DNA from: Magnetococcales bacterium
Lineage (GTDB): Bacteria > Pseudomonadota > Magnetococcia > Magnetococcales > JADGCL01
Assembly: GCA_015229005.1 (NCBI GenBank)
Contig: JADGCL010000029.1
Coordinates: forward strand, 1 to 37,645
DNA: 37,645 bases
Direction of reading: 5' to 3'
Both the position numbers and the translations under genes were made by a program. Below, in pieces: positions 22,016 through 37,645 of this stretch; within the stretch, counting starts at the first letter, position 1; the number at the start of each line of letters is the position of its first letter. A model generated the notes under the pieces. It worked only from the letters and a program-made list of their open reading frames with translations, ran no database searches and was not told the DNA's origin.

Positions 22016-23593
22016 TCAACCGGGATCCAGGGTATCGATACGGTTACGAATCTCCTCGTTGGTACGGGCGCCACCGGGTCCGGAGCCGTTGACGCCGGTG
22101 GGAAGGCGGACACCGGTGGTGATCTCGCTGAGGCCGGAGAGGCGGTTACGGATCATGAGGCCGTCGTTGGCATCGGTGTCCCCGTCGCCATCGACATCGA
22201 ATCCGGTTCCTGCGGCGGTGATGCGGGAGACGATCTCGTCGTTGTCGCGACTGCCGGCGGCGCCGGCGCCGCCGATACTGGTTGGCAGGGTCAGGCCGGT
22301 GACCAGGGTGGAAGCGCCGGTGAGGCGTCTCTGGATGAGGATACCGTCGACGGCGTCGCCGTCGCCGTCGCCGTCGATGTCGAGGGTAGAGGCGGGGGTG
22401 AGGAGTTCGGTAGTGAAACTCCAGGAGAATTCAGCCAGTGGGTTCCCCCAGACGTCGCGAAGCGAGGGGGCGAGCCTGGCGGTGTGCAGGGTTCCCCGGG
22501 GGAGTGGCGTGGTGGGCTTGAAACGGGCGCTCCTGGTGGCGCTGTCGTAGGTGACGGCGCCGCCGATCAGGGTGGCGCCGCTCCGAAGGGTGATACTGTC
22601 GGAATTGATGGTCGAGGCCATCATGGCCTCGTTGAAGAGGACGGAGAGGGTCGGGGTGGTGCTGATACCGTTTGCCGAGGCGGTCGGGCTGACCGAGGTG
22701 ACGGTCGGGGCCTGGGTATCCAGTACGAGGGCGGGACCGTACTGGAGGATCCAGTCGAGGAAGCGCGAGACCCGGGTGTAAACCCCATAGGTGCCGGCCC
22801 GGGCGCAACCGATGCCCCAACTGACGATGCCGGCCAGACGCCATCCTCCCGAACCGTCGGGGACCACCAGGGGACCGCCGCTGTCGCCGCTGCAGGTGTC
22901 GTGGCCGCCGCTTGTGTAGCCGGCGCAGATCATGTTGTCGGTGATACCGCCGACGGCATTGTTGCAGGTGGACCAGGTCACGATTGGGAGGGAGACCTCG
23001 AGGAGTGCATTACTGGTGGAAATGGCCTCGGTGGCATTTGTCCGGCCCCATCCCATGGCGGTGGCGGAAGTCCCTGCGGTGGCGAGGAGGTTTTCCAGGG
23101 TCGCGGTGGTCAACTCGATCGCCGGTTGCGAGGATGGCGTTGTGAGGCGGACCAGGGCAATGTCATTGTCGCTTGTGATCGAGTTATAGGCGCTGTGGGC
23201 GATGGTTTCCGCCACGTCCCGGGTCTCGCCGCCGCTCCCGTTGAGGAGGAGTCGCCCGAGGACGACACGCATCGAGGAGAGCGGGGTCTTGTTGCCGTTG
23301 TCTTCGAGGACGCAGTGGGCTGCTGTCAGGAGCCAACTGGGATGAATCAGGGCAGCGCCACAGAAGATGCTACCCTGACGATCGGTCAGGGCGGCCATCC
23401 ACGGACCGTTGCCGGAGGCGACCGGTTCTCCGCCGATGATCCTCTGGTCCACGCCGGAGGCCCTGGCTCCGGTTACGACAGCAACCAGAGCCAGGAGAAG
23501 GGAGGCGACGAGGAGGAGGGCGAACCGGGAGAGTCGGGGACCCTCGGGAGATCCCTGCCGTAGCCGGCCCGAAAAGGGAGTTTTTTCCGTCAT
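22016..23593 (-). CDS. Secreted trypsin-like serine protease with Ig-like and dockerin-like domains
   Basis: A 525-residue S1 protease. Residues 21-46 form a signal peptide (SRFALLLVASLLLALVAVV, then TGARAS). A zymogen activation site RIIGGEP (R51/I52) follows, then H93 in LTAAHC, D144 in DNDIALV, S238 in DTCSGDSGGP with D232 giving trypsin-like specificity, and paired cysteines. Residues 292-396 resemble a bacterial Ig-like (Big_5) domain (SWSFTT at its end). Residues 404-520 contain two dockerin-like calcium repeats, DIDGDGDGDAVDGILIQRRL and DVDGDGDTDANDGLMIRNRL. Chosen start is ATG 23593, directly before the signal peptide; the frame is open further upstream but with no conserved content. 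It is probably exported and surface-bound or released; the substrate is unknown. Confidence 0.9.
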   Translation of the reverse strand: MTEKTPFSGRLRQGSPEGPRLSRFALLLVASLLLALVAVVTGARASGVDQRIIGGEPVASGNGPWMAALTDRQGSIFCGAALIHPSWLLTAAHCVLEDNGNKTPLSSMRVVLGRLLLNGSGGETRDVAETIAHSAYNSITSDNDIALVRLTTPSSQPAIELTTATLENLLATAGTSATAMGWGRTNATEAISTSNALLEVSLPIVTWSTCNNAVGGITDNMICAGYTSGGHDTCSGDSGGPLVVPDGSGGWRLAGIVSWGIGCARAGTYGVYTRVSRFLDWILQYGPALVLDTQAPTVTSVSPTASANGISTTPTLSVLFNEAMMASTINSDSITLRSGATLIGGAVTYDSATRSARFKPTTPLPRGTLHTARLAPSLRDVWGNPLAEFSWSFTTELLTPASTLDIDGDGDGDAVDGILIQRRLTGASTLVTGLTLPTSIGGAGAAGSRDNDEIVSRITAAGTGFDVDGDGDTDANDGLMIRNRLSGLSEITTGVRLPTGVNGSGPGGARTNEEIRNRIDTLDPG

Positions 23594-25431: not shown

Positions 25432-26994
25432 TTGGACGATACGGCAAGCCTGTATGATGCGATTCCCTATGGTGGCTCGCCGGTCACGGAGAGTCACCCC
25501 GGGCGTCTGGCGGCCCTGGGCATTCTCCACGGGATGCGTCCGGCCCCGGCCTCGGCGTGCCGGGTCCTGGAGTTGGGGGCGGCCAACGGCGGCAACTTGA
25601 TTCCCCTGGCGAGTCGTTATCCCGAGAGCCGGTTTCTGGGGGTCGATATCTCTCCCGGGCAGGTGGCCTCTGGCAGGGAATTGATCGCGGCGCTTGGTCT
25701 CGACAACATCGAGCTTCTGGCGGGTGATCTCCTGGAGCTTGCGGACACCCTGGGGCCGTTCGACTATATCCTGGCGCACGGCCTCTACTCCTGGGTGAGT
25801 GTCCCTGTGCGCCGGCGGATCCTGGAGCTTGTCTCCCGGACCCTGGCGCCTCAGGGGATCGCCTTTGTGAGTTTCAATGCCCTGCCGGGGTGGCGTGGGG
25901 TGCGTGGGGCGTTGCGGGAGATGTTGCGCCACTTTTCCCGCAAGGCCGGAACTCCCAGGGAGCAGGTGGCGGCAGCGCGATCGGGTCTGGACTTTTTGAT
26001 CTCGGGGTATGGAAGCGCGGAGGTATTGGAGGCGCGGCTGCTGCTGCACGAATGCAGGCGGTTGCAGGCGGCGACGGACGGCTATCTGTTTCACGAATAT
26101 CTGGCCCCGATCAACGATCCTTTTTTGTGGGTGACCTTTGTGGAGCATCTGGCCGAGGCTGGCTTGGTGCCGATCACCGACGTGGATCTCGCGATTGCCT
26201 CGCCGCTGGCTTATGGGGAAACGGTGGCGGAAACCTTCGCGACCGGCTCAGGCGATCCTCATGAGGTGGCACAGCGGCTTGATTTCATCGGCAATCGGAG
26301 TTTTCGCCGTAGCCTGATCGGGCATCGGGGCGTTGCTTTGGCCACGGAGCCGATGTGGGAACGCTTGCCGGAACTGGAGTTGATCGCCCAATGCGAGGCG
26401 GAGGTCCCTCCGGAGCTGCGCCGCTCGAAGCCCTCGCCCTATCTTTTGGCCGGTGGGGAGCGGGTTATGGTGCATCAGCCGCTGACCAAAGCGGCCCTGG
26501 AGATTCTCGGCGGTTCTTATCCGGAGACCCGGTCTCTTTCATCCCTGGCGCCCGAGGCGGCGGAACGGGTTCGGCGCGTCGGGGGAGGGGCGTTCGCGGA
26601 GGCCTTTCCCGACCTGCTGGGGGAGATGGCCTCTTTGGTGGTCCGGGGGGCGATCGGAGTCTGCGGTTCGGGATGGAGGGGGGGGGCCGATTTGGTCAGG
26701 CCGCGACTGCGGCCTCTGGCCGAGGCTGGCATTCAGCTTGGTTGGGACCATGTGGCGACGTTGCACCACCATCGGTTACCCGTCGATGATTTCCTGCGGA
26801 TTCTGGCGCCGTTGCTGGACGGGACGCGGGAGTTGAGACAGATTGTTGCCGAGATGGTTCCCGGGATTCGACTCCGGCCGGAGTTGTTGGGGGGGGCGGC
26901 GGCGCGGTGGAGCGAGGCGCGTCTGGGAACGGCGCTCGGCAAGCGGGTTGAGGAGGCGCTTCGTCTCTTGGGGCGCCAGGGATTGCTGATTTAG
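25432..26994 (+). CDS. Class I SAM methyltransferase with methyltransferase regulatory domain
   Basis: A 520-residue two-part protein. Residues 1-190 are a Rossmann methyltransferase: SPVTESHPGRLAALGILHG, motif I CRVLELGAANGGNLI, then LGVDIS and AGDLLEL. Residues about 215-300 carry the 'methyltransferase regulatory domain' pattern (FHEYLAPINDPFLWVTFVEH, then AEAGLVPI). The C-terminal 200 residues are helical, winged-helix-like. Such proteins are annotated as predicted methyltransferases and the substrate is usually unknown. Start TTG 25432 has GGGGG about 6 nt upstream and begins DDTASLYDAIPYGG, as homologues do. It lies 44 nt after purB and 54 nt before the first glycosyltransferase, so a glycan or protein target is possible but not shown. 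Confidence 0.82.
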   Translation: MDDTASLYDAIPYGGSPVTESHPGRLAALGILHGMRPAPASACRVLELGAANGGNLIPLASRYPESRFLGVDISPGQVASGRELIAALGLDNIELLAGDLLELADTLGPFDYILAHGLYSWVSVPVRRRILELVSRTLAPQGIAFVSFNALPGWRGVRGALREMLRHFSRKAGTPREQVAAARSGLDFLISGYGSAEVLEARLLLHECRRLQAATDGYLFHEYLAPINDPFLWVTFVEHLAEAGLVPITDVDLAIASPLAYGETVAETFATGSGDPHEVAQRLDFIGNRSFRRSLIGHRGVALATEPMWERLPELELIAQCEAEVPPELRRSKPSPYLLAGGERVMVHQPLTKAALEILGGSYPETRSLSSLAPEAAERVRRVGGGAFAEAFPDLLGEMASLVVRGAIGVCGSGWRGGADLVRPRLRPLAEAGIQLGWDHVATLHHHRLPVDDFLRILAPLLDGTRELRQIVAEMVPGIRLRPELLGGAAARWSEARLGTALGKRVEEALRLLGRQGLLI

Positions 26995-27048
26995 ACCGGG
27001 GATCTTCGGGAGGATTCCACAGTCGGATTCGGGTCGAGGGAAGCAGGG

Positions 27049-28227
27049 ATGAAGATCGGCATCGCCGGACCGATACTGGTGGAGGCCCTCCGGGATCAAT
27101 TGGAGCCTGGATCGGGGGGGGCGTCCCCGGCGATTCGTGGCCTTGGGGGGGCGACTGTCAACCTTCTGGTCCGGGGGTTACTGGCCAGGGGGCATGAGGT
27201 CGTCGTCTTCAGCCTCGATCCGGAGGTGACCCGTGAGGTCGTTCTCAGAGGGCCTCGTCTGACCCTGTGTCTTGGCCCTTATCGCCGGCGGGCGCGGTGG
27301 CGGGCGCTGGATCTCTTCCGCCAGGAGCGACGCTATCTCAGCGAGACGATCCGGCGAGAGCGACCGGAGGTGGTCCACGCCCACTGGACCTATGAATTTG
27401 CTCTCGGGGCTCTCGCATCCGGGCTGCCCACCCTGGTGACCATGCGGGATTGGGCGCCGGCGGTGCTTCGCCATTACCGGGACCCGTACCGCCTCCTGCG
27501 TTGGGTGATGGACGCTTTGACGGTGCGGCGCAGTCCCTACCTGACGGCCAATTCGGTCTACATTCAGGAGCTGATCGTCTCGCGTTGGCGACGGCAGGTT
27601 TCGGTCATTCCCAACCCGGTGGAACCGGGTTTTTTCCGGCAGGAAGAGAAACTCTTCCCCGAATCGGATCCGGTGGTCGTGGCGGTGGCGGAGGGTTTTT
27701 CCCGCCTCAAGAACCAGAAAAGCCTGATGCGTGCCTGGCCGATGATCCGGGAAGAACATCCCAATTGCCGACTCTGTTGGGTCGGGCGGGATTTTGAGCG
27801 CCAGGGGGTTGCCTGGAAGTGGGCCTGGGAGGAGGGGCTCGACGGCGGCATGGAGTTTGCTGGGGGTGTCAGCCGCGAGGGTCTCAAGGCAACGCTCGAT
27901 CGCGGTGCCCTGTTGGTGCATCCTTCGTTGGAGGAGTCGTTCGGCAATGCGGTGGTCGAGGCGATGGCGCGGCGGTTGCCGGTTGTGGGGGGGGGGCATT
28001 CGGGGGCGGTGCCCTGGATCCTCGATCATGGTGATGCCGGAGTGTTGACGGATGTGACCGACCCTCCGACCCTGGCGCGTGCGGTCAATGCCCTTCTCTC
28101 CTCTCGGGAGGAGTGGGTGCGTTATTCGCGGAAGGGATATCGGCGGGTCCAGTCGCACTTCTCGCTTTCCCGGGTGGTCGAGATCTCTCTGGCGGAGTAC
28201 GCCCGGATGTTGGCCCCTGGGAGCTGA
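27049..28227 (+). CDS. Glycosyltransferase, GT4 family (GT-B fold)
   Basis: A 392-residue GT-B enzyme. The N-terminal domain begins MKIGIAGPILVEALRDQLE and has the Gly-rich loop GGATVNLLVRGLLARGHEVV and VVHAHWTYEF. The C-terminal donor domain has VAVAEGFSRLKNQKSLMRAW, VGRDF and the E-x7-E motif HPSLEESFGNAVVEAMARRL. The family transfers nucleotide-activated sugars, here probably onto a lipid-linked or core oligosaccharide at the cytosolic membrane face. Start ATG 27049. Its last ten codons are caught in a tandem 28-bp duplication that runs past the stop. It is first in a series of glycan genes. Confidence 0.88.
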   Translation: MKIGIAGPILVEALRDQLEPGSGGASPAIRGLGGATVNLLVRGLLARGHEVVVFSLDPEVTREVVLRGPRLTLCLGPYRRRARWRALDLFRQERRYLSETIRRERPEVVHAHWTYEFALGALASGLPTLVTMRDWAPAVLRHYRDPYRLLRWVMDALTVRRSPYLTANSVYIQELIVSRWRRQVSVIPNPVEPGFFRQEEKLFPESDPVVVAVAEGFSRLKNQKSLMRAWPMIREEHPNCRLCWVGRDFERQGVAWKWAWEEGLDGGMEFAGGVSREGLKATLDRGALLVHPSLEESFGNAVVEAMARRLPVVGGGHSGAVPWILDHGDAGVLTDVTDPPTLARAVNALLSSREEWVRYSRKGYRRVQSHFSLSRVVEISLAEYARMLAPGS

Positions 28228-28273
28228 TCCCCGGATGTTGGCCCCTGGGAGCTGATCCCCGGATGTCGGCCCC
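28204..28273 (+). repeat. Tandem 28-bp duplication, 2.5 copies
   Basis: The unit beginning CGGATGTTGGCCCCTGGGAG occupies 28204-28231, is repeated exactly at 28232-28259 and a third time partially at 28260-28273 with one change (GTT to GTC). The first copy holds the last codons and the stop of the upstream glycosyltransferase gene. The exact identity points to a recent slippage duplication. Confidence 0.9.
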
Positions 28274-28323
28274 CTGTGGGGTGTTGTGATTCCCGGGTAG
28301 TTGACGATGGAGCGGCAGGGGTC

Positions 28324-29439
28324 TTGAGGGTACTGAACGTTTTCAACGAGTTGGTGGCCTCCGGGGCGGAGATGATGTGGTGCGCCGCCTCTCCCTGCTG
28401 GCGGGAGGCGGGGGTCACGGTCGATATCCTCGCGACGGGCGCCTCTCCCGGTCCTTTTGCCCCCTCCCTGGCCGCCTGCGGCTATACCCTGCACCACCTT
28501 GCTTTTTCCCGAACTCCGCTCTTCTTCTGGCGTTTCTATCGTCTCCTGCGGCGTCACCGCTATCGGCTGGTCCATGTCCATTGCGAACGGGCCTCCTTCT
28601 ACTACCTCCTGGTGGCCCGTCTCGCCGGGGCGCGGGTGATTCGATCGGTTCATGCGCACTTTCCGTTTTCCGGCTCTCTGGGGTTCCGTCGCCGCTGGCA
28701 GCGTCGTATCGGTCGCTGGCTGGGGGCGGTCTTCGTCAGCGTGAGTCCTTCGGTTGGGGCCACGGAGCGGGAATTTTTCGGCAATCCGACGCAGGTCATC
28801 TCCAACTGGTACGACAGCCTGTCCCTCAGGCCCCCGACCGCGGGAGAGCGTCTGTCGGCACGGGACGCCTTGTCTCTGCCTCGGGATGGGGTGGTGATCG
28901 TCAGCGTCGGCAACTGCGCGGCGGTCAAGAATCACGAGAACCTGCTGCGGGCGCTGGCCCGGGTGGGGGATTGTGGTGACTGGATCTATCTCCATGCCGG
29001 TCGGGAAGAGGCCGGGCAGCCGGAGAGGCGGCTGGTCGGTGACCTCGGCCTGGAGGGTCGGGTGCGCTTTCTCGGCATGGTGGGCGAGGTCCGGCAGGTG
29101 TTGTGGGCGGCGGATCTTTTTGTGATGCCGTCTCTGCGTGAGGGGTTCGGGGTTGCCGCCGTCGAGGCCCTGGCGACGGGCTTGCCGGCCCTTCTGACCG
29201 AGGTCCCGGGTTTGAATGGTTTTCGGGAAATCGGGGGGATCGTCTGGTCGGGGAGTTCCGCGGTCGAACTGGAGAGTTCCCTGAGACGGGCGTTATCGCT
29301 CTGTGGGGGTGTTGGGGAGGAGGAAAGGCGGGATCGGCATCTGGCGGTGAGGCGCCGTTTCGGCATGGAGGCCCGGGTTGCCGACTATGTGCGACTCTAC
29401 CGGGGGCTTTCTCCGGTGATCGGGGAGGGGAGTCGATGA
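28324..29439 (+). CDS. Glycosyltransferase, GT4 family (GT-B fold)
   Basis: A 371-residue GT4 enzyme. From TTG 28324 it begins LRVLNVFNELVASGAEMMWC, the typical start of this subgroup, and continues with LVHVHCERASFYYLLVARLA and VIRSVHAHFPF (acceptor domain). Then come VSVGNCAAVKNHENLLRALA, GRVRFLGMV and the E-x7-E motif MPSLREGFGVAAVEALATGL (donor domain). The frame is open back to GTG 28276 but adds no conserved part; the ribosome site is modest. The stop overlaps the start of the ligase-like gene as ATGA (29436-29439), so the two are translationally coupled. Donor sugar and acceptor cannot be told from sequence. Confidence 0.87.
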   Translation: MRVLNVFNELVASGAEMMWCAASPCWREAGVTVDILATGASPGPFAPSLAACGYTLHHLAFSRTPLFFWRFYRLLRRHRYRLVHVHCERASFYYLLVARLAGARVIRSVHAHFPFSGSLGFRRRWQRRIGRWLGAVFVSVSPSVGATEREFFGNPTQVISNWYDSLSLRPPTAGERLSARDALSLPRDGVVIVSVGNCAAVKNHENLLRALARVGDCGDWIYLHAGREEAGQPERRLVGDLGLEGRVRFLGMVGEVRQVLWAADLFVMPSLREGFGVAAVEALATGLPALLTEVPGLNGFREIGGIVWSGSSAVELESSLRRALSLCGGVGEEERRDRHLAVRRRFGMEARVADYVRLYRGLSPVIGEGSR

Positions 29440-31028
29440 TCGAATCTCCGCTCTTCGGTTACATCCTCCTGGCGATTTTTCACTTGGGGCTCGGGGTGCT
29501 GCTCCTGGGGGGGCAGCTTCGAGGGCTGGCCGATCCCAGGGCCGGGAAGAAGGAGGGGGTCCCTTGGCTGCGGGTGTTGATATGGATCCTGGGGACATGG
29601 CCCATCATCTGGACGATGATGATTCCCCGGAATCTGGTTCTCGAGGAGGTGATCAACGCCCTCGGAATGGATATCGAGATCGAAGCGGTGGGGCCGATCC
29701 TCGAACAGGGATTGTTGGACCAGGTTGGGCAACTGTCGGTGCTGATCCTGCTCTCGGGCAGCGCCCTCCTCCTGATGCAGGCGTTGCAGAAAGGGTTTCC
29801 GCGACCGGGACATGACCTTTGGCTGGCCTATTTGGGATATGCCTCGGGGTCGGTGCTTTCCTCGATCTTCGGCGATCCGGGGGGTGGTTTCGACGACTAT
29901 CTCTTCCGACCGATGGTGGTGTTCACCTTGCTCTATTTCTCGATCAACCTGACGCCCGAGCGGCTCGTTCCCGGGGCAAAGGGGATCTGTCTTTTTTTTG
30001 TGGTGGGGAGTGTTCTCACCCCCCTCATCAATCCGAGCTGGGCCCTGCTGGTGGATCCGACGGCCACGATCGGGCCGTTGACGACCCGTCTTTTCGGGTT
30101 ATCCAGCAATGCCAACGGGCTGGGACCGGTAGCGGTGCTGTTTCTCTACCTGGACTGGATCTTTCCGTATCGTTCGAAGACGCTGCGCTGGGTTGGCCGG
30201 ACGGTGGCGATGGTGGCGATGGTCTGGGCGCAGTCGAAGACGGTGTTGGGGGCCTTTGCGGTGGGAATCGCCCTCAAGCTCCTGTTCGACGAAAACCGGG
30301 AGAGTCGTCTCTCCCCCGGGGTCTCGGTCCTGTTTCGGGTCGGGCTCATCTCCATGAGCCTGGTGGTTGTTTCGATTCTCTCCTTTTCGGGGGACTCACT
30401 GGGGGACAAGTCCGGGGAGATCACCTTTACCGGGCGCACGGAGATCTGGGCGATCACCTGGCAGACCTTTCTTGAACGGCCCTGGATCGGTTACGGTCCA
30501 ACGATGTGGGATGCTCATTTCCGGGCGCTCTATTACGAAGAGGCCCGAACCTATGCCGCCCATGCCCACAACATGTTTCTCCAGGTCATGGGGGAGGCCG
30601 GGGTGTATGGACTGGCCACTTACCTGATCTTTCTGGTCACCCTGCTCAAGGTGATGTGGCGGAGCCGGCTCGTCTCTTCCGGGTGGTCGATTGCCTTTGT
30701 CTCGGTGGCGCTGGTGCGGACGTTCACCGAGAGTTCGCTGCGCAACCTTTCCATCAACGAAGGAACGTTTTTCAACATGATGGTCTTTGGGTTGCTTATC
30801 TACTGGGAGAAGAAGCGACTGGCGGTGGCCCCCGTGCCTTCTCCCGGGGGAGGGGAGCGACGGCGGTCGCGGGTTCCCGACTGGCGGTTTCCCCCTGTGG
30901 GAACGCTTTCCCCGGAGGGTGGTCGGGCGCCAGCTTGGGGGGGGGCGGTCGGTTCGGCGCGTGGGGGAAGGCGAGTTTCTCCTGCCTCCCCCGCCACGGG
31001 GAACTCCCCCCGAAGGCCCTTTTCATGA
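29436..31028 (+). CDS. O-antigen ligase / polymerase-like membrane protein (Wzy_C, WaaL type)
   Basis: A 530-residue protein with about 11 to 12 hydrophobic spans. The large periplasmic loop with the Wzy_C pattern is seen at about residues 328-395: FTGRTEIWAITWQTFLERPW, then IGYGPTMWD, YAAHAHNMFLQVMGEAGVYG. The conserved R of 'TGR..IW' and the His of 'AHN' are the usual functional residues. The family either ligates O-antigen from undecaprenyl diphosphate to lipid A-core (WaaL) or polymerises repeats (Wzy); sequence alone does not separate them. The last 65 residues (about 467-530) are Pro/Gly/Arg-rich, non-hydrophobic and read like translated GC-rich spacer. Start ATG 29436 and end both overlap neighbours as ATGA. 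Confidence 0.85.
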   Translation: MIESPLFGYILLAIFHLGLGVLLLGGQLRGLADPRAGKKEGVPWLRVLIWILGTWPIIWTMMIPRNLVLEEVINALGMDIEIEAVGPILEQGLLDQVGQLSVLILLSGSALLLMQALQKGFPRPGHDLWLAYLGYASGSVLSSIFGDPGGGFDDYLFRPMVVFTLLYFSINLTPERLVPGAKGICLFFVVGSVLTPLINPSWALLVDPTATIGPLTTRLFGLSSNANGLGPVAVLFLYLDWIFPYRSKTLRWVGRTVAMVAMVWAQSKTVLGAFAVGIALKLLFDENRESRLSPGVSVLFRVGLISMSLVVVSILSFSGDSLGDKSGEITFTGRTEIWAITWQTFLERPWIGYGPTMWDAHFRALYYEEARTYAAHAHNMFLQVMGEAGVYGLATYLIFLVTLLKVMWRSRLVSSGWSIAFVSVALVRTFTESSLRNLSINEGTFFNMMVFGLLIYWEKKRLAVAPVPSPGGGERRRSRVPDWRFPPVGTLSPEGGRAPAWGGAVGSARGGRRVSPASPATGNSPRRPFS

Positions 31029-31957
31029 GTCGGGCCGCAGGCGGACGACGGGTGGCGGTGCTGGTGACCTGTTTTCGCCAGCGACCGCAGGTGATGCGTT
31101 GCCTGGAGGCCTTATCCCTGGCGGCGGTGGAGGCGGGTATCGATCCGGAAATCCATCTTCTGGATGATGATGGGCGGGATGGTACCCGTGAAGCGGTTAT
31201 GCGTTCATTCCCAGGGGCCAGGATCACCGTCGGCGACGGCAGCCATTATTGGAATGGAGGTATGCGTCGTCTTTGGCTCCAGGCTGCGGAGGTGGGTTAC
31301 GATGACTACCTGTGGTTGAACAGCGATACCTACCTTCTTCCCTCGGCGCTCAGGCATCTTCTGGAAAGTGCCGCTTGGGTCCGGGAGCGGGAGGGACGGG
31401 ATGGGATCGTGGTTGGGGCGGTCCGGGATCCCGAGAGCGGCGAAATCTCCTACGGGGGGGTAAGCCGAACGCACCCGCATCGACCGCTTTCCTTCGGAAG
31501 GGTCGAGCCCGGGGAGGAGCCCCGGCGTTGTGACACCTTCAATGGCAATTGCCTCCTGGTTCCTGACGCCGTGGTCAGGGAGATCGGGGTCCTGAGCCCG
31601 GAGTTCAGCCACGCCATCGGCGATACCGATTATGGTCTGCGGGCCGGCAAGGCGGGATTCGGCAGTTGGGTTTGCCCGCACCCTGTAGGGAGCTGCCGGC
31701 TCAATCTGGGTAATGGTGACTGGGCCCGGGCGACGGTCCCCTTGCGACGGCGCATTCGGCTGGTTCTCGCTCCGAAGGGGTTGCCACCCCGGGAGTGGTG
31801 GGTTTTCGTGCGCCGTCACACGGGGAGGGGGTGGTTGTGGTACTGGGTGAAGCCCTACCTCCGGGTCTTGTTTCCGGAGCTTTGGTCGCGTCTGACCGAG
31901 GCTTCCCGGTCTTTCCGGGTTGCTCGGGTTTTCCGGGCGATTCGGCGCGGAGGCTAG
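31025..31957 (+). CDS. Glycosyltransferase, GT2 family (rhamnosyltransferase-like)
   Basis: A 310-residue GT-A enzyme. Seen: the N-terminal VAVLVTCFRQRPQVMRCLEA, the nucleotide-binding acidic cluster HLLDDDGRDGT, the DGSHYWNGGMRRLW block, the metal-site motif YLWLNSDTYLL, TFNGNCLLVPD, and the catalytic-base region SHAIGDTDYGLRAGKAGF. This spacing is that of GT2 members which add rhamnose or other deoxysugars in O-antigens; the exact sugar is not determined. Start ATG 31025 overlaps the previous stop by the ATGA tetranucleotide. The C-terminal 80 residues are basic and may lie on the inner membrane. The gene is followed after 5 nt by the next glycosyltransferase. Confidence 0.88.
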   Translation: MSRAAGGRRVAVLVTCFRQRPQVMRCLEALSLAAVEAGIDPEIHLLDDDGRDGTREAVMRSFPGARITVGDGSHYWNGGMRRLWLQAAEVGYDDYLWLNSDTYLLPSALRHLLESAAWVREREGRDGIVVGAVRDPESGEISYGGVSRTHPHRPLSFGRVEPGEEPRRCDTFNGNCLLVPDAVVREIGVLSPEFSHAIGDTDYGLRAGKAGFGSWVCPHPVGSCRLNLGNGDWARATVPLRRRIRLVLAPKGLPPREWWVFVRRHTGRGWLWYWVKPYLRVLFPELWSRLTEASRSFRVARVFRAIRRGG

Positions 31958-31962
31958 GGGGA

Positions 31963-33114
31963 ATGGGAGCGCGGATCCTGCTTTTCTATCCGGCGATGGC
32001 GCCGTATCGGGTCGACCTGTTCAACCGGCTTGCCGAAGAGGCGGTTTTTCGCGTCGTATTTCTTGACCGGGAAATCTATTATCACCGAGAGTTGGATCCA
32101 CGAGGGGTCACTGCGTCGCTTCGTTGTGACCATGGTTTTCTATCCGAAGGTTTTTCCTTGGGGGGGCGTTCGTTTCCCCTGGGACTCGGGGGGGAGATCG
32201 ACCGGTTTCGACCGCAGGCGGTGATCACGGTGGAGTACGCCTTGCCCACCCTTCTGGCCCTGTGGCACCGGCGGGGAAAAAGGCGGTACGGCCTGACCCT
32301 GTTGACGGCGGAGAATCCCTGGATTCTTGCCGAACGCCGGGGGGTTCGGGCGCTTCTGGCGCGTTACCTCCCGCGCCTTTGCGACAGTATGCTGGTTTAC
32401 TCCGAAGAGATGAAGAGTGCCTTCGAGGCCAGGGGGGTTGCCGGGGGGCGGCTTTTCGTGGCGGCCAATCACCACGAGGAGGGCGCCTTTCGTTCGCGAC
32501 TCGTCGACTCTCGGGTGCTTCTTTCCGGTATGCTGGAGAGGTATCGACTCGCGGGGCGGAAGGTTGTCCTTTTTGTTGGGCGGCTGGTGCGCGTGAAGGG
32601 GTTGGAGGCTCTGGTCCGGGCCTTTGCCCGGGTTGCACGGCGACTGCCGGAGGCGGTGCTGGTTCTGGTGGGGAGTGGTCCGGAAGCGGCAGCCCTGGGT
32701 CGACAGGCGGTTGCGGAGGGGGTTGGCGACCGGGTTCTCCTGCCAGGTCACCGGGAGGGGGCGGAGCTTGTGGCCTGGTATCACCTGGCGTCGCTCTTTG
32801 TCCTGAACAGCTTATGGGAGCCCTACGGGGCGGTGGTCAACGAGGCGCTTCTGGCGGGGGTCCCGGTGTTGTGTTCGCACCGGGCGGGAAGTCGGGCGCT
32901 TATCCGGGAGGGGTGGAATGGTCGGATCGTCGATCCCGAAGATTGCGATGCCCTGATGGCGGGTCTGGAGCGGGAGTTGATAGCGGCGCCGACGGCCGAG
33001 GTGACCGCTGTCCGGTTGCGGGACAGCCTGATGCCGGTCACTTTTCAGCGTGATGTCGATGGCTTTTTGGGGGCAGCGGACCTGGCCGCGCGAAGCTCAG
33101 GGGATCGCTCATGA
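31963..33114 (+). CDS. Glycosyltransferase, GT4 family (GT-B fold)
   Basis: A 383-residue enzyme beginning ARILLFYPAMAPYRVDLFNR, the start typical of GT4 members with 'PYR..LF..L'. It continues with PQAVITVEYALPTLLALWHR and TAENPWIL in the acceptor domain. The donor domain has VLFVGRLVRVKGLEALVRAF, LVGSGPEAAAL and the E-x7-E motif NSLWEPYGAVVNEALLAGVP. Start ATG 31963 has GGAGG 9 nt upstream; the frame is open further back inside the preceding GT2 gene but without conserved content. The stop overlaps the methyltransferase start as ATGA (33111-33114). Confidence 0.88.
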   Translation: MGARILLFYPAMAPYRVDLFNRLAEEAVFRVVFLDREIYYHRELDPRGVTASLRCDHGFLSEGFSLGGRSFPLGLGGEIDRFRPQAVITVEYALPTLLALWHRRGKRRYGLTLLTAENPWILAERRGVRALLARYLPRLCDSMLVYSEEMKSAFEARGVAGGRLFVAANHHEEGAFRSRLVDSRVLLSGMLERYRLAGRKVVLFVGRLVRVKGLEALVRAFARVARRLPEAVLVLVGSGPEAAALGRQAVAEGVGDRVLLPGHREGAELVAWYHLASLFVLNSLWEPYGAVVNEALLAGVPVLCSHRAGSRALIREGWNGRIVDPEDCDALMAGLERELIAAPTAEVTAVRLRDSLMPVTFQRDVDGFLGAADLAARSSGDRS

Positions 33115-33959
33115 GTGACGAGGCCGCAAGACCTGTCGGGGAGATGGACGATGCCCGGTCCGTTGCCGCTGCCCTGAGAGGCGAGTGTTTGTATGGGGAT
33201 GATTTCGATCTGGAGGGGATCCGCACCTGGTACGCCGATGAAGCGGAGGCCTATGCCGCCATGGGGGCGGGGAACCGGGATCGCTACACCTACGGCTACC
33301 ACGCCTTGAATTTCTACCATGGGTTCCGTTTTCTGCCGCCCGGGATTTTTGCCCATGCCCTGGGGTTTGGCAGTGCCTGGGGGGAGGAGTTCAAACCCCT
33401 GGCGGGGAGGGTCTCACGTCTGACTATTGTTGAGTCTTCAGCAGCCTACGGTGGTGACCGGGTCCATGGGATTCCGACGCGGTATGTCAAGCCGGAAGTG
33501 GAAGGGACCCTGCCCTTCGCCGAGGCCGAGTTCGATCTGATCTCCTGTCTGGGGGTGTTGCATCACCTTCCCAATGTAAGTCGTGTCGTCGGGGAGTTTT
33601 ATCGTTGTCTTGCCCCGGGCGGCCATGCCCTGATCAGCGAGCCCTGTGTTTCGATGGGGGACTGGCGTCGACCGCGACGGGGGCTTACGCGCCGCGAGCG
33701 GGGTATCCCGCTCGCGATCTTTCGCCGGATGCTCGGGGATGCGGGCTTTTTGGTGGTCAGTGAGCGCTATTGCATGATTCCCTGGCTCCCGCGTCTGGGG
33801 GATCGGCTGGGGATTGCCATCTTCAATCAGCCCTTTTTTACGAGGGTTGATGCGGTGGCCTCGCGTCTTTTGCAGTGGAACATGCACTACCATGGGACGC
33901 GTCTCTGGCAGAAGTTCAAACCTGCCAATGTATTTTATGTTTTGCGAAAGCCTGTGTGA
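33111..33959 (+). CDS. SAM-dependent methyltransferase (class I)
   Basis: A 282-residue protein. The methyltransferase core is seen as ALGFGSAWGEEFKPLAGRVS with LTIVESS (a degenerate motif I and following acidic strand end), then FAEAEFDLISCLGVLHHLPN (motif around strand 4) and YRCLAPGGHALISEP (motif after strand 5). A C-terminal 90-residue region, basic and hydrophobic, may contact a membrane or a glycan acceptor. Start ATG 33111 overlaps the previous stop, so it is coupled to the GT4 gene. In such a locus a sugar O-methyltransferase or a chain-capping methyltransferase is a reasonable inference, not shown by sequence. Confidence 0.78.
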   Translation: MSDEAARPVGEMDDARSVAAALRGECLYGDDFDLEGIRTWYADEAEAYAAMGAGNRDRYTYGYHALNFYHGFRFLPPGIFAHALGFGSAWGEEFKPLAGRVSRLTIVESSAAYGGDRVHGIPTRYVKPEVEGTLPFAEAEFDLISCLGVLHHLPNVSRVVGEFYRCLAPGGHALISEPCVSMGDWRRPRRGLTRRERGIPLAIFRRMLGDAGFLVVSERYCMIPWLPRLGDRLGIAIFNQPFFTRVDAVASRLLQWNMHYHGTRLWQKFKPANVFYVLRKPV

Positions 33960-34027
33960 CCAGGGAGAATCCAAGGGCTGGTGATTCGCCGGGGGGGGGA
34001 TGGCGGTGTTGACTGAGGAGAACGGCC

Positions 34028-35305
34028 ATGCGGATCTCGGTGGTCCACAACGAATACGGGCGGACGAGCGGCGAGGAGATTGTGGTTGGGCGCCTCATGG
34101 CCCTGCTCCGGGAGCACGGACACCATGTCTCTCCCTTTCTCCGTTCCAGCGCCATGATCGGGCGGATGCCCTTTGGCCAAATACGCGCTTTTTTTTCCGG
34201 GATATACAACCCATGGTCCCGCCGGGATTTTCGACAATTTCTGATGACGGAGAGACCGGATATCGTCCATATCCACAATTTGTATCCCCTGATCTCCCCG
34301 TCGATTCTTCTGGAGTGTCGCGCCTGTTCGATCCCGGTGGTGATGACGGTACATAATTTTCGTCTGTTGTGTCCCAATGGTCTTTTCATGAGCGGTGGCA
34401 GGGTTTGCACGGCCTGTTGTCGAGGTCGGGAATACTGGTGCCTCCTCAGGAATTGCGAGCGACAATGGCCCAAGAGCCTGGGATACGCATTGAGGAATGC
34501 GGTGGCAAGGCGCCTGGGATTTTTTCGGGATGCGGTCTGGCTCTACGCCACCCTGACTGAATTTCAAAAGCGGTGGCTGGTGGATTCCGGTATTCCCGAG
34601 GCGCGGGTCGTGGTGATTCCGAACATGGTTGAGTCCACCGCGGCGAACCTGATGTCCCCCGGAGAGGTGGGCTTGGAGGTTGGGAAGGAGCCGATTGTGG
34701 ATGGTGGTGTGGGCGGTGGGATGGTGGAGGGGGGGGATCAAAAGGGAAGAGGGGGCGGGGAAGGGTATGTGGCTTTCGTGGGGAGGGTGAGTCCGGAAAA
34801 GGGGGTGGAGACGCTTCTGGCGGCGGCGCGGCGGTTGCCGTCCATTCCTTTCCGGATTGCCGGGGAGTATGGACGGATGCCGCACTTGCCCGGAACTGCC
34901 CCGGCCAACGTTCGTTTTCTGGGGCATCTGGATGCGAAGGGGGTGTCCGAGGTTTACTCCGGGGCGAGAATGGTTGTCCAGTGCAGCCTCTGTTTTGAAG
35001 GGTTTCCGATGTCGGTGGTGGAGGCGATGGGGCACGGGCGGGCGGTGATCGGCTCACGCCTGGGTGGTTTGGCGGAGATTGTGGAAGATGGGGTGACGGG
35101 GAAACTCGTCGAAGCGGGGGACGAGACCGGGTTGGCGGCGGCGGTGCTTGATCTCTGGGGACGGCCGGAGGCAACGGCCAGGATGGGGGAGTTGGGTCGC
35201 CAGCGGGTGGCGAGCTGCTATTCGCCGGCCCGGTACTTCGATCGTCTTGAGCGGGCCTATGCCAAGGCCCTGAGGCTGGGGCCGCCGCTGTGGACGGAGG
35301 AGTGA
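34028..35305 (+). CDS. Glycosyltransferase, GT4 family, with Gly-rich insertion
   Basis: A 425-residue GT-B enzyme. The N-terminal domain shows MRISVVHNEYGRTSGEEIVV, PDIVHIHNLYPLISPSIL and VVMTVHNFRLLCPNGLFMSG, followed by a four-to-six-cysteine stretch (VCTACCRGREYWCLLRNC) seen in one GT4 subgroup. The donor domain has FVGRVSPEKGVETLLAAARR and the E-x7-E motif CFEGFPMSVVEAMGHGRAVI. Between the two domains, at about residues 206-243, lies a Gly/Glu/Val-rich insert (DGGVGGGMVEGGDQKGRGGG) where most relatives have a short linker. Start ATG 34028. A 68-nt gap separates it from the preceding methyltransferase; 6 nt separate it from the next gene. Confidence 0.88.
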   Translation: MRISVVHNEYGRTSGEEIVVGRLMALLREHGHHVSPFLRSSAMIGRMPFGQIRAFFSGIYNPWSRRDFRQFLMTERPDIVHIHNLYPLISPSILLECRACSIPVVMTVHNFRLLCPNGLFMSGGRVCTACCRGREYWCLLRNCERQWPKSLGYALRNAVARRLGFFRDAVWLYATLTEFQKRWLVDSGIPEARVVVIPNMVESTAANLMSPGEVGLEVGKEPIVDGGVGGGMVEGGDQKGRGGGEGYVAFVGRVSPEKGVETLLAAARRLPSIPFRIAGEYGRMPHLPGTAPANVRFLGHLDAKGVSEVYSGARMVVQCSLCFEGFPMSVVEAMGHGRAVIGSRLGGLAEIVEDGVTGKLVEAGDETGLAAAVLDLWGRPEATARMGELGRQRVASCYSPARYFDRLERAYAKALRLGPPLWTEE

Positions 35306-35311
35306 GATTCG

Positions 35312-36079
35312 ATGGGAGGGCGAAGAACCATTAAGTGCATGCCCGACGGTCGGGCGATGCTGAACGTCGGGTGTGGACCTCGTACCCATTTAGCTTTCAA
35401 TAATTTGGATTTTTCCCCCTATGCCCTGTTGGGTTCGCATCGCGGTCTGGTCAAGGTCCTGTACGGTCTGGGGTTGCTTTCGGCAAACCGGTACGAATCG
35501 CTTCGTGCCATCGACCCGGATATCATTTATTGGAATGTTCGTCGGGGGTTGCCCTTTGCCGATCGGGGTTTCGATCTGGTCTACCACTCGCATTTCATCA
35601 CGCACCTGGATCGGGAGGATGCGCTGGAGGTCACACATGAATGCTGGCGTGTTCTGAAGCCGGGGGGGATCGTCCGGGTGGTGGTGCCGGATTTGCGTCA
35701 GTTGGTCCTCGACTACGATTGGGCTTTTGGTCGGTTGGAGTCGGGCGAAAGCGCCTTCGAGGAGCATCAACGGGCCGTGGATGAGCTGTTCGAACTGATG
35801 GTCCGTCGGGTTCCGGTTGGAACCTCGCGGCAGCACCCGCTGGTGAGGGTATTGGAGATGGGGCTTCGTGGGGATATCCATGCACGGGGAGAGTCCCGAC
35901 GATGGCAATATGACCGTTTTTCGATGGCAGCACTGTTGCGGCAGGCGGGATTTCGGAAGACGGAATTGACGACTCCGGACAGGAGCCTGGTTGAGGGGTG
36001 GAATGCGTTTGGACTTGATCTCAATCCGGACGGATCGGTTTATAAACCCGGATCCCTGTTTATGGAGGGGATCAAGTAG
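35312..36079 (+). CDS. SAM-dependent methyltransferase (class I)
   Basis: A 255-residue methyltransferase. Motif I is AMLNVGCGPRTHLAFNNLDF. Then IIYWNVRRGLPFADRGFDLV, YHSHFITHLDREDALEVTHE and CWRVLKPGGIVRVVVPDLRQ give the strand 4/5 region, all standard for the Methyltransf_11-type family ('EC.RVLKPGG..R...PDL'). Start ATG 35312 has GGAGGAG about 9 nt upstream; ATG 35339 is a weaker alternative. It closes the plus-strand glycan series, 6 nt after the GT4 gene. Codons 100-117 (35608-35662) are present again, inverted and identical, at the right edge of the window, where that copy is broken. Confidence 0.85.
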   Translation: MGGRRTIKCMPDGRAMLNVGCGPRTHLAFNNLDFSPYALLGSHRGLVKVLYGLGLLSANRYESLRAIDPDIIYWNVRRGLPFADRGFDLVYHSHFITHLDREDALEVTHECWRVLKPGGIVRVVVPDLRQLVLDYDWAFGRLESGESAFEEHQRAVDELFELMVRRVPVGTSRQHPLVRVLEMGLRGDIHARGESRRWQYDRFSMAALLRQAGFRKTELTTPDRSLVEGWNAFGLDLNPDGSVYKPGSLFMEGIK

Positions 36080-36281
36080 GGTATTGTGACGGGCCGGGGA
36101 TGGCTGGCCAGTTTCCATGGGATGGTGTGATCCATTGAATTTGAAAGGGAGGGCAAATCCTGGTTTTGATTTTTTGGGTTGAAAACCCATCTATGGATTA
36201 TTGCAACGGGCTGGTGTGGTGGTGGGGGCACCTGCGGTCGACGGGCCGGGAGGTTTTGGTGGCCTGTGCATCGACGTGTCG

Positions 36282-37064
36282 TCATCCGACCGGACTCCGA
36301 CCGGTCAGGGCTGCAAACAACCGTCCATCGACCCTGAGGTCGGCGATATTGTGTTCGAGGGGGTGGTTTGGATGCCAGCGGGTGCGGTGGATGATGCCGG
36401 GTCTGGGTTTCGAGAATTGCATTCCCGGGATGGCGTAGGCGACGCTTTGAAAGCCGTGGGTGAGGGACCACTGGAGCAGTTTTTCGTTGAAGTGCCGCCG
36501 CATGCCAAAAGGGAATGAGAGGTGCTGGACCGGGTGATCGACGATGGCCTCCAGTCTCTCTTTGGCGGTGGTGATGTCACGGAGAGCCTCGGTGTGGGGG
36601 ATGGCGTTGAGGTTTTTATGGGAATGGGAATGACAGGCGATGGTGTGGCCGGCCTGGGCGAGTTGTCGGATCTCTGCGGCGCTGAGGCTTTGTCGGTCAC
36701 CGTGATGTTCGATTCTCTCGAAGTAGTCGGTGATGGTTCGAGGATCGGCTTCGTCGGCAATGGGTAACGTATTGACATAGAAAGTGGCTTGAATGCCAGA
36801 TTGTTGCAGAAGGGGCAGGAGGGCGAGCCAGGAGTGATAGTTGTCGTCGAAGCTGACGAAGAGGGATTTTCCGTCTGATTCATGCCAATGATCGGGGGTG
36901 GTGGAAGAATAGCCCAGCGAGCGAAAGTGGTGAAGACAGGAGGCGAGGGCACCCAACTCATTCGGGGCAATGGCATGGAAGTAGATGGCGATTTTTTCCG
37001 GGAGAGGTCGGCTCATGGCGAGGAGGTGGAACCGGCGAGCCAGGGCGATCAAGGTCGATTTCAT
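36282..37064 (-). CDS. Polysaccharide deacetylase family protein (NodB homology, CE4)
   Basis: A 260-residue CE4-type protein. Motif 1 is LFVSFDDNYHSW (D73, D74), motif 2 the HSHSH metal site (H145, H149), motif 3 SFPFG. QATFYVNTLP between motifs 1 and 2 is also typical. These enzymes remove N- or O-acetyl groups from sugars with a divalent metal. No clear signal peptide is present; a basic amphipathic start (KSTLIALARRFHLLAM) might associate with the membrane. Start ATG 37064 has AGGAG 9 nt upstream; TTG 37070 is less likely. It converges on the glycan block and probably edits the same glycan. Codon choice appears somewhat less GC-biased than its neighbours. Confidence 0.88.
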   Translation of the reverse strand: MKSTLIALARRFHLLAMSRPLPEKIAIYFHAIAPNELGALASCLHHFRSLGYSSTTPDHWHESDGKSLFVSFDDNYHSWLALLPLLQQSGIQATFYVNTLPIADEADPRTITDYFERIEHHGDRQSLSAAEIRQLAQAGHTIACHSHSHKNLNAIPHTEALRDITTAKERLEAIVDHPVQHLSFPFGMRRHFNEKLLQWSLTHGFQSVAYAIPGMQFSKPRPGIIHRTRWHPNHPLEHNIADLRVDGRLFAALTGRSPVG

Positions 37065-37272
37065 GCGCAAACACTCCTGGGAGGGTGCCGTTGGCCGTGG
37101 CAGGGTTCGATCGAGGAGGCTAACAACGTCGGGAGGTTGGAGGCAAGCCGGGCCAAACGATTTTGGTGAGTGGAGTACTTGACCCTCGGCGCTTCTTATG
37201 GCACCCTGCGCCGGCTTTTACGGGCGTGGGGGCTGGAGTCTCGGTGAGAGGTTCTCCGTCCGGTGTTGCGCA

Positions 37273-37348
<76 letters not shown>

Positions 37349-37364
37349 AAGAAAACAAACACTT

Positions 37365-37391
37365 ACGGCCATCCTCGCGGTGGCCGTTTTT
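37365..37391 (+). terminator. Rho-independent terminator of the tRNA-Lys gene
   Basis: Stem ACGGCCA (37365-37371) / TGGCCGT (37381-37387), a 9-nt loop and T5 (37387-37391), 16 nt after the tRNA CCA end. Confidence 0.85.
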
Positions 37392-37397
37392 GTTCCA

Positions 37398-37416
37398 GTA
37401 CCCACATAGTACCCAC
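37398..37416 (+). repeat. Direct repeat GTACCCAC beside tRNA-Lys
   Basis: GTACCCAC occurs at 37398-37405 and 37409-37416, 11 bp apart, just after the tRNA terminator. Short direct repeats at a tRNA 3' flank are often integrase arm-type sites, but no integrase gene is visible in the window, so this is only a hint. Confidence 0.3.
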
Positions 37417-37578
37417 CAGGAAGAAACTCTCTGGGCCAGAACCCAGGGGAGGGATTCGATCCTGGAGCTGCCCCCCTCCCCGATCCCCGACCAGGAGGGA
37501 TAGCCGTTCTCTGGATGGGCATCGTGCCGGTCAGAGAGAGAGGGCGTCACATTGCCGCCCGGGTGACGTAGCGAAACG

Positions 37579-37645
37579 CTACCCCATCGACGGCTTCAGA
37601 ACACGCCAGCATTCATGTGTGACCTCCAGCGCATCCTCCCGATCC
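37579..37645 (-). pseudogene. Truncated inverted copy of a methyltransferase gene fragment (runs off the window)
   Basis: Bases 37591-37645 are the exact reverse complement of 35608-35662, 55 of 55. On the minus strand they keep the methyltransferase frame (codons 100-117 of the gene at 35312), up to the VLKP of its conserved VLKPGG motif. Identity then stops and the frame reads Ser-Met-Gly-stop (TAG at 37579-37581), losing the C-terminal 138 residues. A perfect GTAGCG/CGCTAC hairpin (37568-37582) and a CGTCAC/GTGACG inverted repeat (37545-37550 / 37563-37568) lie at the breakpoint. The upstream part is beyond the window, so it is not known how much of the gene is duplicated, and an assembly or amplification chimera is possible. 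Confidence 0.75.

Follow-up and report, generated by a model that had tools for sequence, protein, structure and literature searches.

A 55-bp inverted methyltransferase match at a Magnetococcales contig end is very probably an assembly-graph overlap, not a recent duplication

The stretch of DNA analysed here (the window, 37,645 bp) is the complete contig C95 (G000:C95) of a Magnetococcales draft genome of 3.28 Mb in 173 contigs (79% complete), and its position 37645 is the contig terminus. The last 55 bases are the exact reverse complement of a segment inside a methyltransferase gene, and had been described in an initial annotation as either a very recent duplication or a chimera, of the DNA or of its assembly. 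We conclude, with a probability of about 94%, that this identity is the de Bruijn graph overlap at which a short-read assembler ended the contig, and that it is not evidence for recent duplication of the gene. As described, that is, as an inverted methyltransferase duplicate, the match is not a real feature.

No repeat in the window, in either orientation, is longer than this match, which has a chance expectation of about 1e-23 and reaches the contig terminus exactly; at its other edge, no base upstream of 37591 continues it. Upstream of the break there is no similarity between the two places, with an alignment score of -4 compared to a random mean of -8.2 and a 95th percentile of -2. The second-longest repeat is an overlapping 37-bp direct repeat at 28202/28230 (28202-28266, 28-bp period). 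The initial annotation was correct about the exactness of the match, the adjoining tRNA-Lys gene and the methyltransferase gene itself (Table 1), and about the stop in the copied frame, which reads TCG-ATG-GGG-TAG past the junction when followed in the sequence. It had also called the junction rich in inverted repeats, and one small hairpin does lie directly before it; however, that stretch folds no better than shuffled sequence, which gives the hairpin no significance as a cause of the break. Elsewhere in the window, at 22255-22274, we noted a perfect 20-bp palindrome, CGGCGGCGCCGGCGCCGCCG.

The origin of the identity could be settled without reads by comparing contig ends. We read both ends of 61 of the 173 contigs, giving 122 ends including those of the window, and searched for termini that matched other sequence exactly. 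At five ends the terminal match was exact and, at its longest, exactly 55 bp (Table 1), and none of the 122 ends had a longer one. Shorter terminal matches were also found, one of 46 bp between C4_R and C107 (a further copy of the repeat shared by C4_R and C110), and two of 29 and 20 bp between C110_R and C112. The interior of one contig, C8, does contain exact repeats longer than 55 bp, in a tandem array, so the 55-bp limit applies to termini and not to interiors. Because the length is constant over unrelated loci, it must be a property of the assembler, and both the length and the perfect identity are set by k. The pattern is a hallmark of de Bruijn assembly at a final k of 55, and from it we infer SPAdes or metaSPAdes as the assembler, for which the final k is usually 55. 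Contigs from metaSPAdes and MEGAHIT are known to share end sequences of length maxK at their break points (COBRA; PMC10914622), and the Magnetococcales MAG UR-1 was produced by a default metaSPAdes assembly (PMC6783814), although we do not equate UR-1 with the genome analysed here.

Table 1. Features of the window, and contig ends with a 55-bp exact terminal overlap.
Feature	Position	Strand	Basis or matching sequence
Methyltransferase gene, 255 aa, single copy in draft genome	35312..36079	+	Pfam Methyltransf_11, E 1.2e-8
55-mer in its genomic place, within methyltransferase gene	35608..35662	+	
tRNA-Lys (CTT)	37273..37348	+	ARAGORN
Terminator-like hairpin followed by T run, common to regions after three other tRNAs of the genome	37365..37391	+	Read from sequence
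Direct repeat pair GTACCCA-CATA-GTACCCA, resembling integrase arm-type sites	37398..37415	+	Motif count
Small hairpin GTAGCG-AAA-CGCTAC directly before junction, not significant	37568..37582	+	Fold z = -0.94
Terminal 55-mer of C95, proposed assembly-graph vertex common with 35608-35662 on the opposite strand	37591..37645	-	Exact match to contig terminus
55-bp overlap, end C95_R			Own interior, inverted
55-bp overlap, end C41_L (second graph overlap of equal length)	37374..37428	+	Interior of C95
55-bp overlap, end C4_R			Near end of C110
55-bp overlap, end C117_R			Near end of C98
55-bp overlap, end C8_L			Own interior

These results support the initial description in part. For the 55-bp identity the assembly branch is supported, its length being that of the overlap at four other contig ends, and the recent duplication is not: a k-mer overlap must by its nature show 100% identity, and identity is therefore uninformative about age. 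A longer copy or a second duplication boundary, sought for 26000-36079, did not turn up in the draft genome. A gene-conversion tract or micro-duplication truly 55 bp long would account for the abrupt boundary and the perfect identity; however, such a tract would have to end exactly at the contig terminus, and is contradicted by a length equal to that of the four other overlaps, and we regard its probability as negligible. More generally, an exact repeat that lies at a contig terminus and has the length of the assembler's k should be discounted before a duplication is claimed.

We propose that an assembler working with k = 55 would have walked C95 rightward to base 37590, where at least one k+1-mer would lead into the reverse-complement vertex of 35608-35662. 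This vertex would already lie on the contig's own path, and the contig would stop there, with the whole vertex printed as its final 55 bases. We also made a toy k = 55 graph of the window sequence, in which the path stopped exactly at 37645 when one chimeric read was supplied, and likewise when a genuine inverted copy exceeding 55 bp (400 bp was tried) was present. Since both cases stop at the same base, the contig establishes no more than a link between 37590 and 35662 on the opposite strand.

With regard to the origin of this link, sequence alone cannot decide between a chimera and a rearrangement. A chimeric template-switch molecule is most likely and a real rearrangement less so, because nearby inverted joins dominate the products of multiple displacement amplification (MDA) and magnetotactic samples are often amplified. 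The joins that MDA produces are mainly inverted ones spanning under 10 kb (PMC1855051), and the join seen here spans about 1.9 kb, inside that criterion; amplification before sequencing is frequent for Magnetococcales and other magnetotactic samples (PMC5955933, PMC7453278). One competing explanation is that a longer piece of the methyltransferase region is truly repeated in the genome, in inverted orientation, beyond the tRNA-Lys gene, and that this repeat broke the contig, so that the visible 55 bp are merely its first k bases. The 400-bp copy in the toy graph behaves in this way, and the 3' ends of tRNA genes are insertion sites, this one bearing attachment-like repeats. However, no second duplication boundary or further copy was found for 26000-36079 across the draft genome, although the draft is only 79% complete, and no such copy follows 37430 in 47 genomes of the same order, among which we also found no real continuation of 37430-37590. 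We consider this explanation possible but unlikely. The absence of a further copy weighs about equally on the chimeric and real-copy readings, as an alternative continuation of 37590 is also missing from every contig of the draft genome.

It is also conceivable that 35663-37590 is inverted in a fraction of the population, and that the contig ends on the junction which this arrangement creates. Such an inversion would produce precisely the observed join, by simple reasoning; the segment is nevertheless without flanking inverted repeats, and no contig shows the matching other junction or an alternative continuation of 37590, making a segregating inversion highly improbable. Taken as a biological proposal, the contig end would be a true inversion or inverted copy, sited where elements integrate at tRNA-Lys and truncated by the assembler, with a fragment of a surface-polysaccharide methyltransferase gene as its switching or island cargo; this appears to us improbable. 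The sole other match to the methyltransferase gene in the draft genome is the 55-bp tail, and a search for the gene in named genomes gave no match. The surrounding region (31795-37070) is a polysaccharide-type cluster, with two glycosyltransferases and two methyltransferases, and a polysaccharide deacetylase on the opposite strand.

The tRNA-Lys gene does resemble an integration site; this is a matter separate from the methyltransferase match, which the attachment-like repeats do not explain. The tRNA region of C95 was matched in all 40 of the same-order relatives compared. The GTACCCA pair occurs four times in the draft genome, always just after a tRNA gene and near a contig end, while a reversed control pattern occurs nowhere in it. 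In the other three copies, the terminator and repeat pair follow tRNA-Ala (C87), tRNA-Thr (C128, with the spacer CACA) and tRNA-Lys-TTT (C41). The named genomes with the motif next to a tRNA are all Magnetococcales MAGs, in which it comes after tRNA-Arg, tRNA-Val and tRNA-Lys genes. At one locus (L179, 1732-1850), the motif follows an apparent 3' tRNA fragment only, with no whole tRNA reported by ARAGORN, as one would expect where an integrated element has its distal end. Among three named Magnetococcales loci with phage-type genes downstream of the motif, two encode a phage terminase small subunit, and there is one weak match to a tail fibre. The terminator and paired GTACCCA repeats found after several tRNAs (37349-37429 in the window; C87, C128 and C41; L174-L180) are thus likely to be attachment regions of tRNA-targeting prophages or islands, a known kind of element, and the presence of such sites in multiple copies may explain why several contigs end there.

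Some further observations were made by eye on related loci. At L079 a similar repeat pair is followed directly by a frame whose beginning looks like that of an integrase. Six loci from other genomes of the order (L062, L063, L064, L066, L068 and L073) have similarly spaced but different repeat pairs, including GTAAGCA, GCAATCA, TTGCTAC and ATGGGTTCC, about 50-75 bases past the tRNA 3' end, as if integrases of differing specificity acted at one tRNA-Lys site.

Three known systems come closest to what is seen at this contig end. The tRNA, terminator and paired direct repeats, together with the phage genes downstream in related loci, are like those of the attachment regions that prophages or islands use at the 3' ends of tRNA genes. 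No integrase is seen next to the C95 copy, because the contig stops some 300 bases past the tRNA; the integrase genes that were found lie on other contigs. The link at 37590 is like an MDA inverted chimera, in which two nearby segments, here about 1.9 kb apart, are joined in inverted orientation at a break without upstream similarity (PMC1855051). The terminal identity itself is like the maxK contig-end overlaps of metaSPAdes and MEGAHIT that COBRA exploits, with one fixed exact length, here 55 bp at five ends; whereas in COBRA these overlaps join the ends of different contigs, the end of C95 matches its own interior, inverted.
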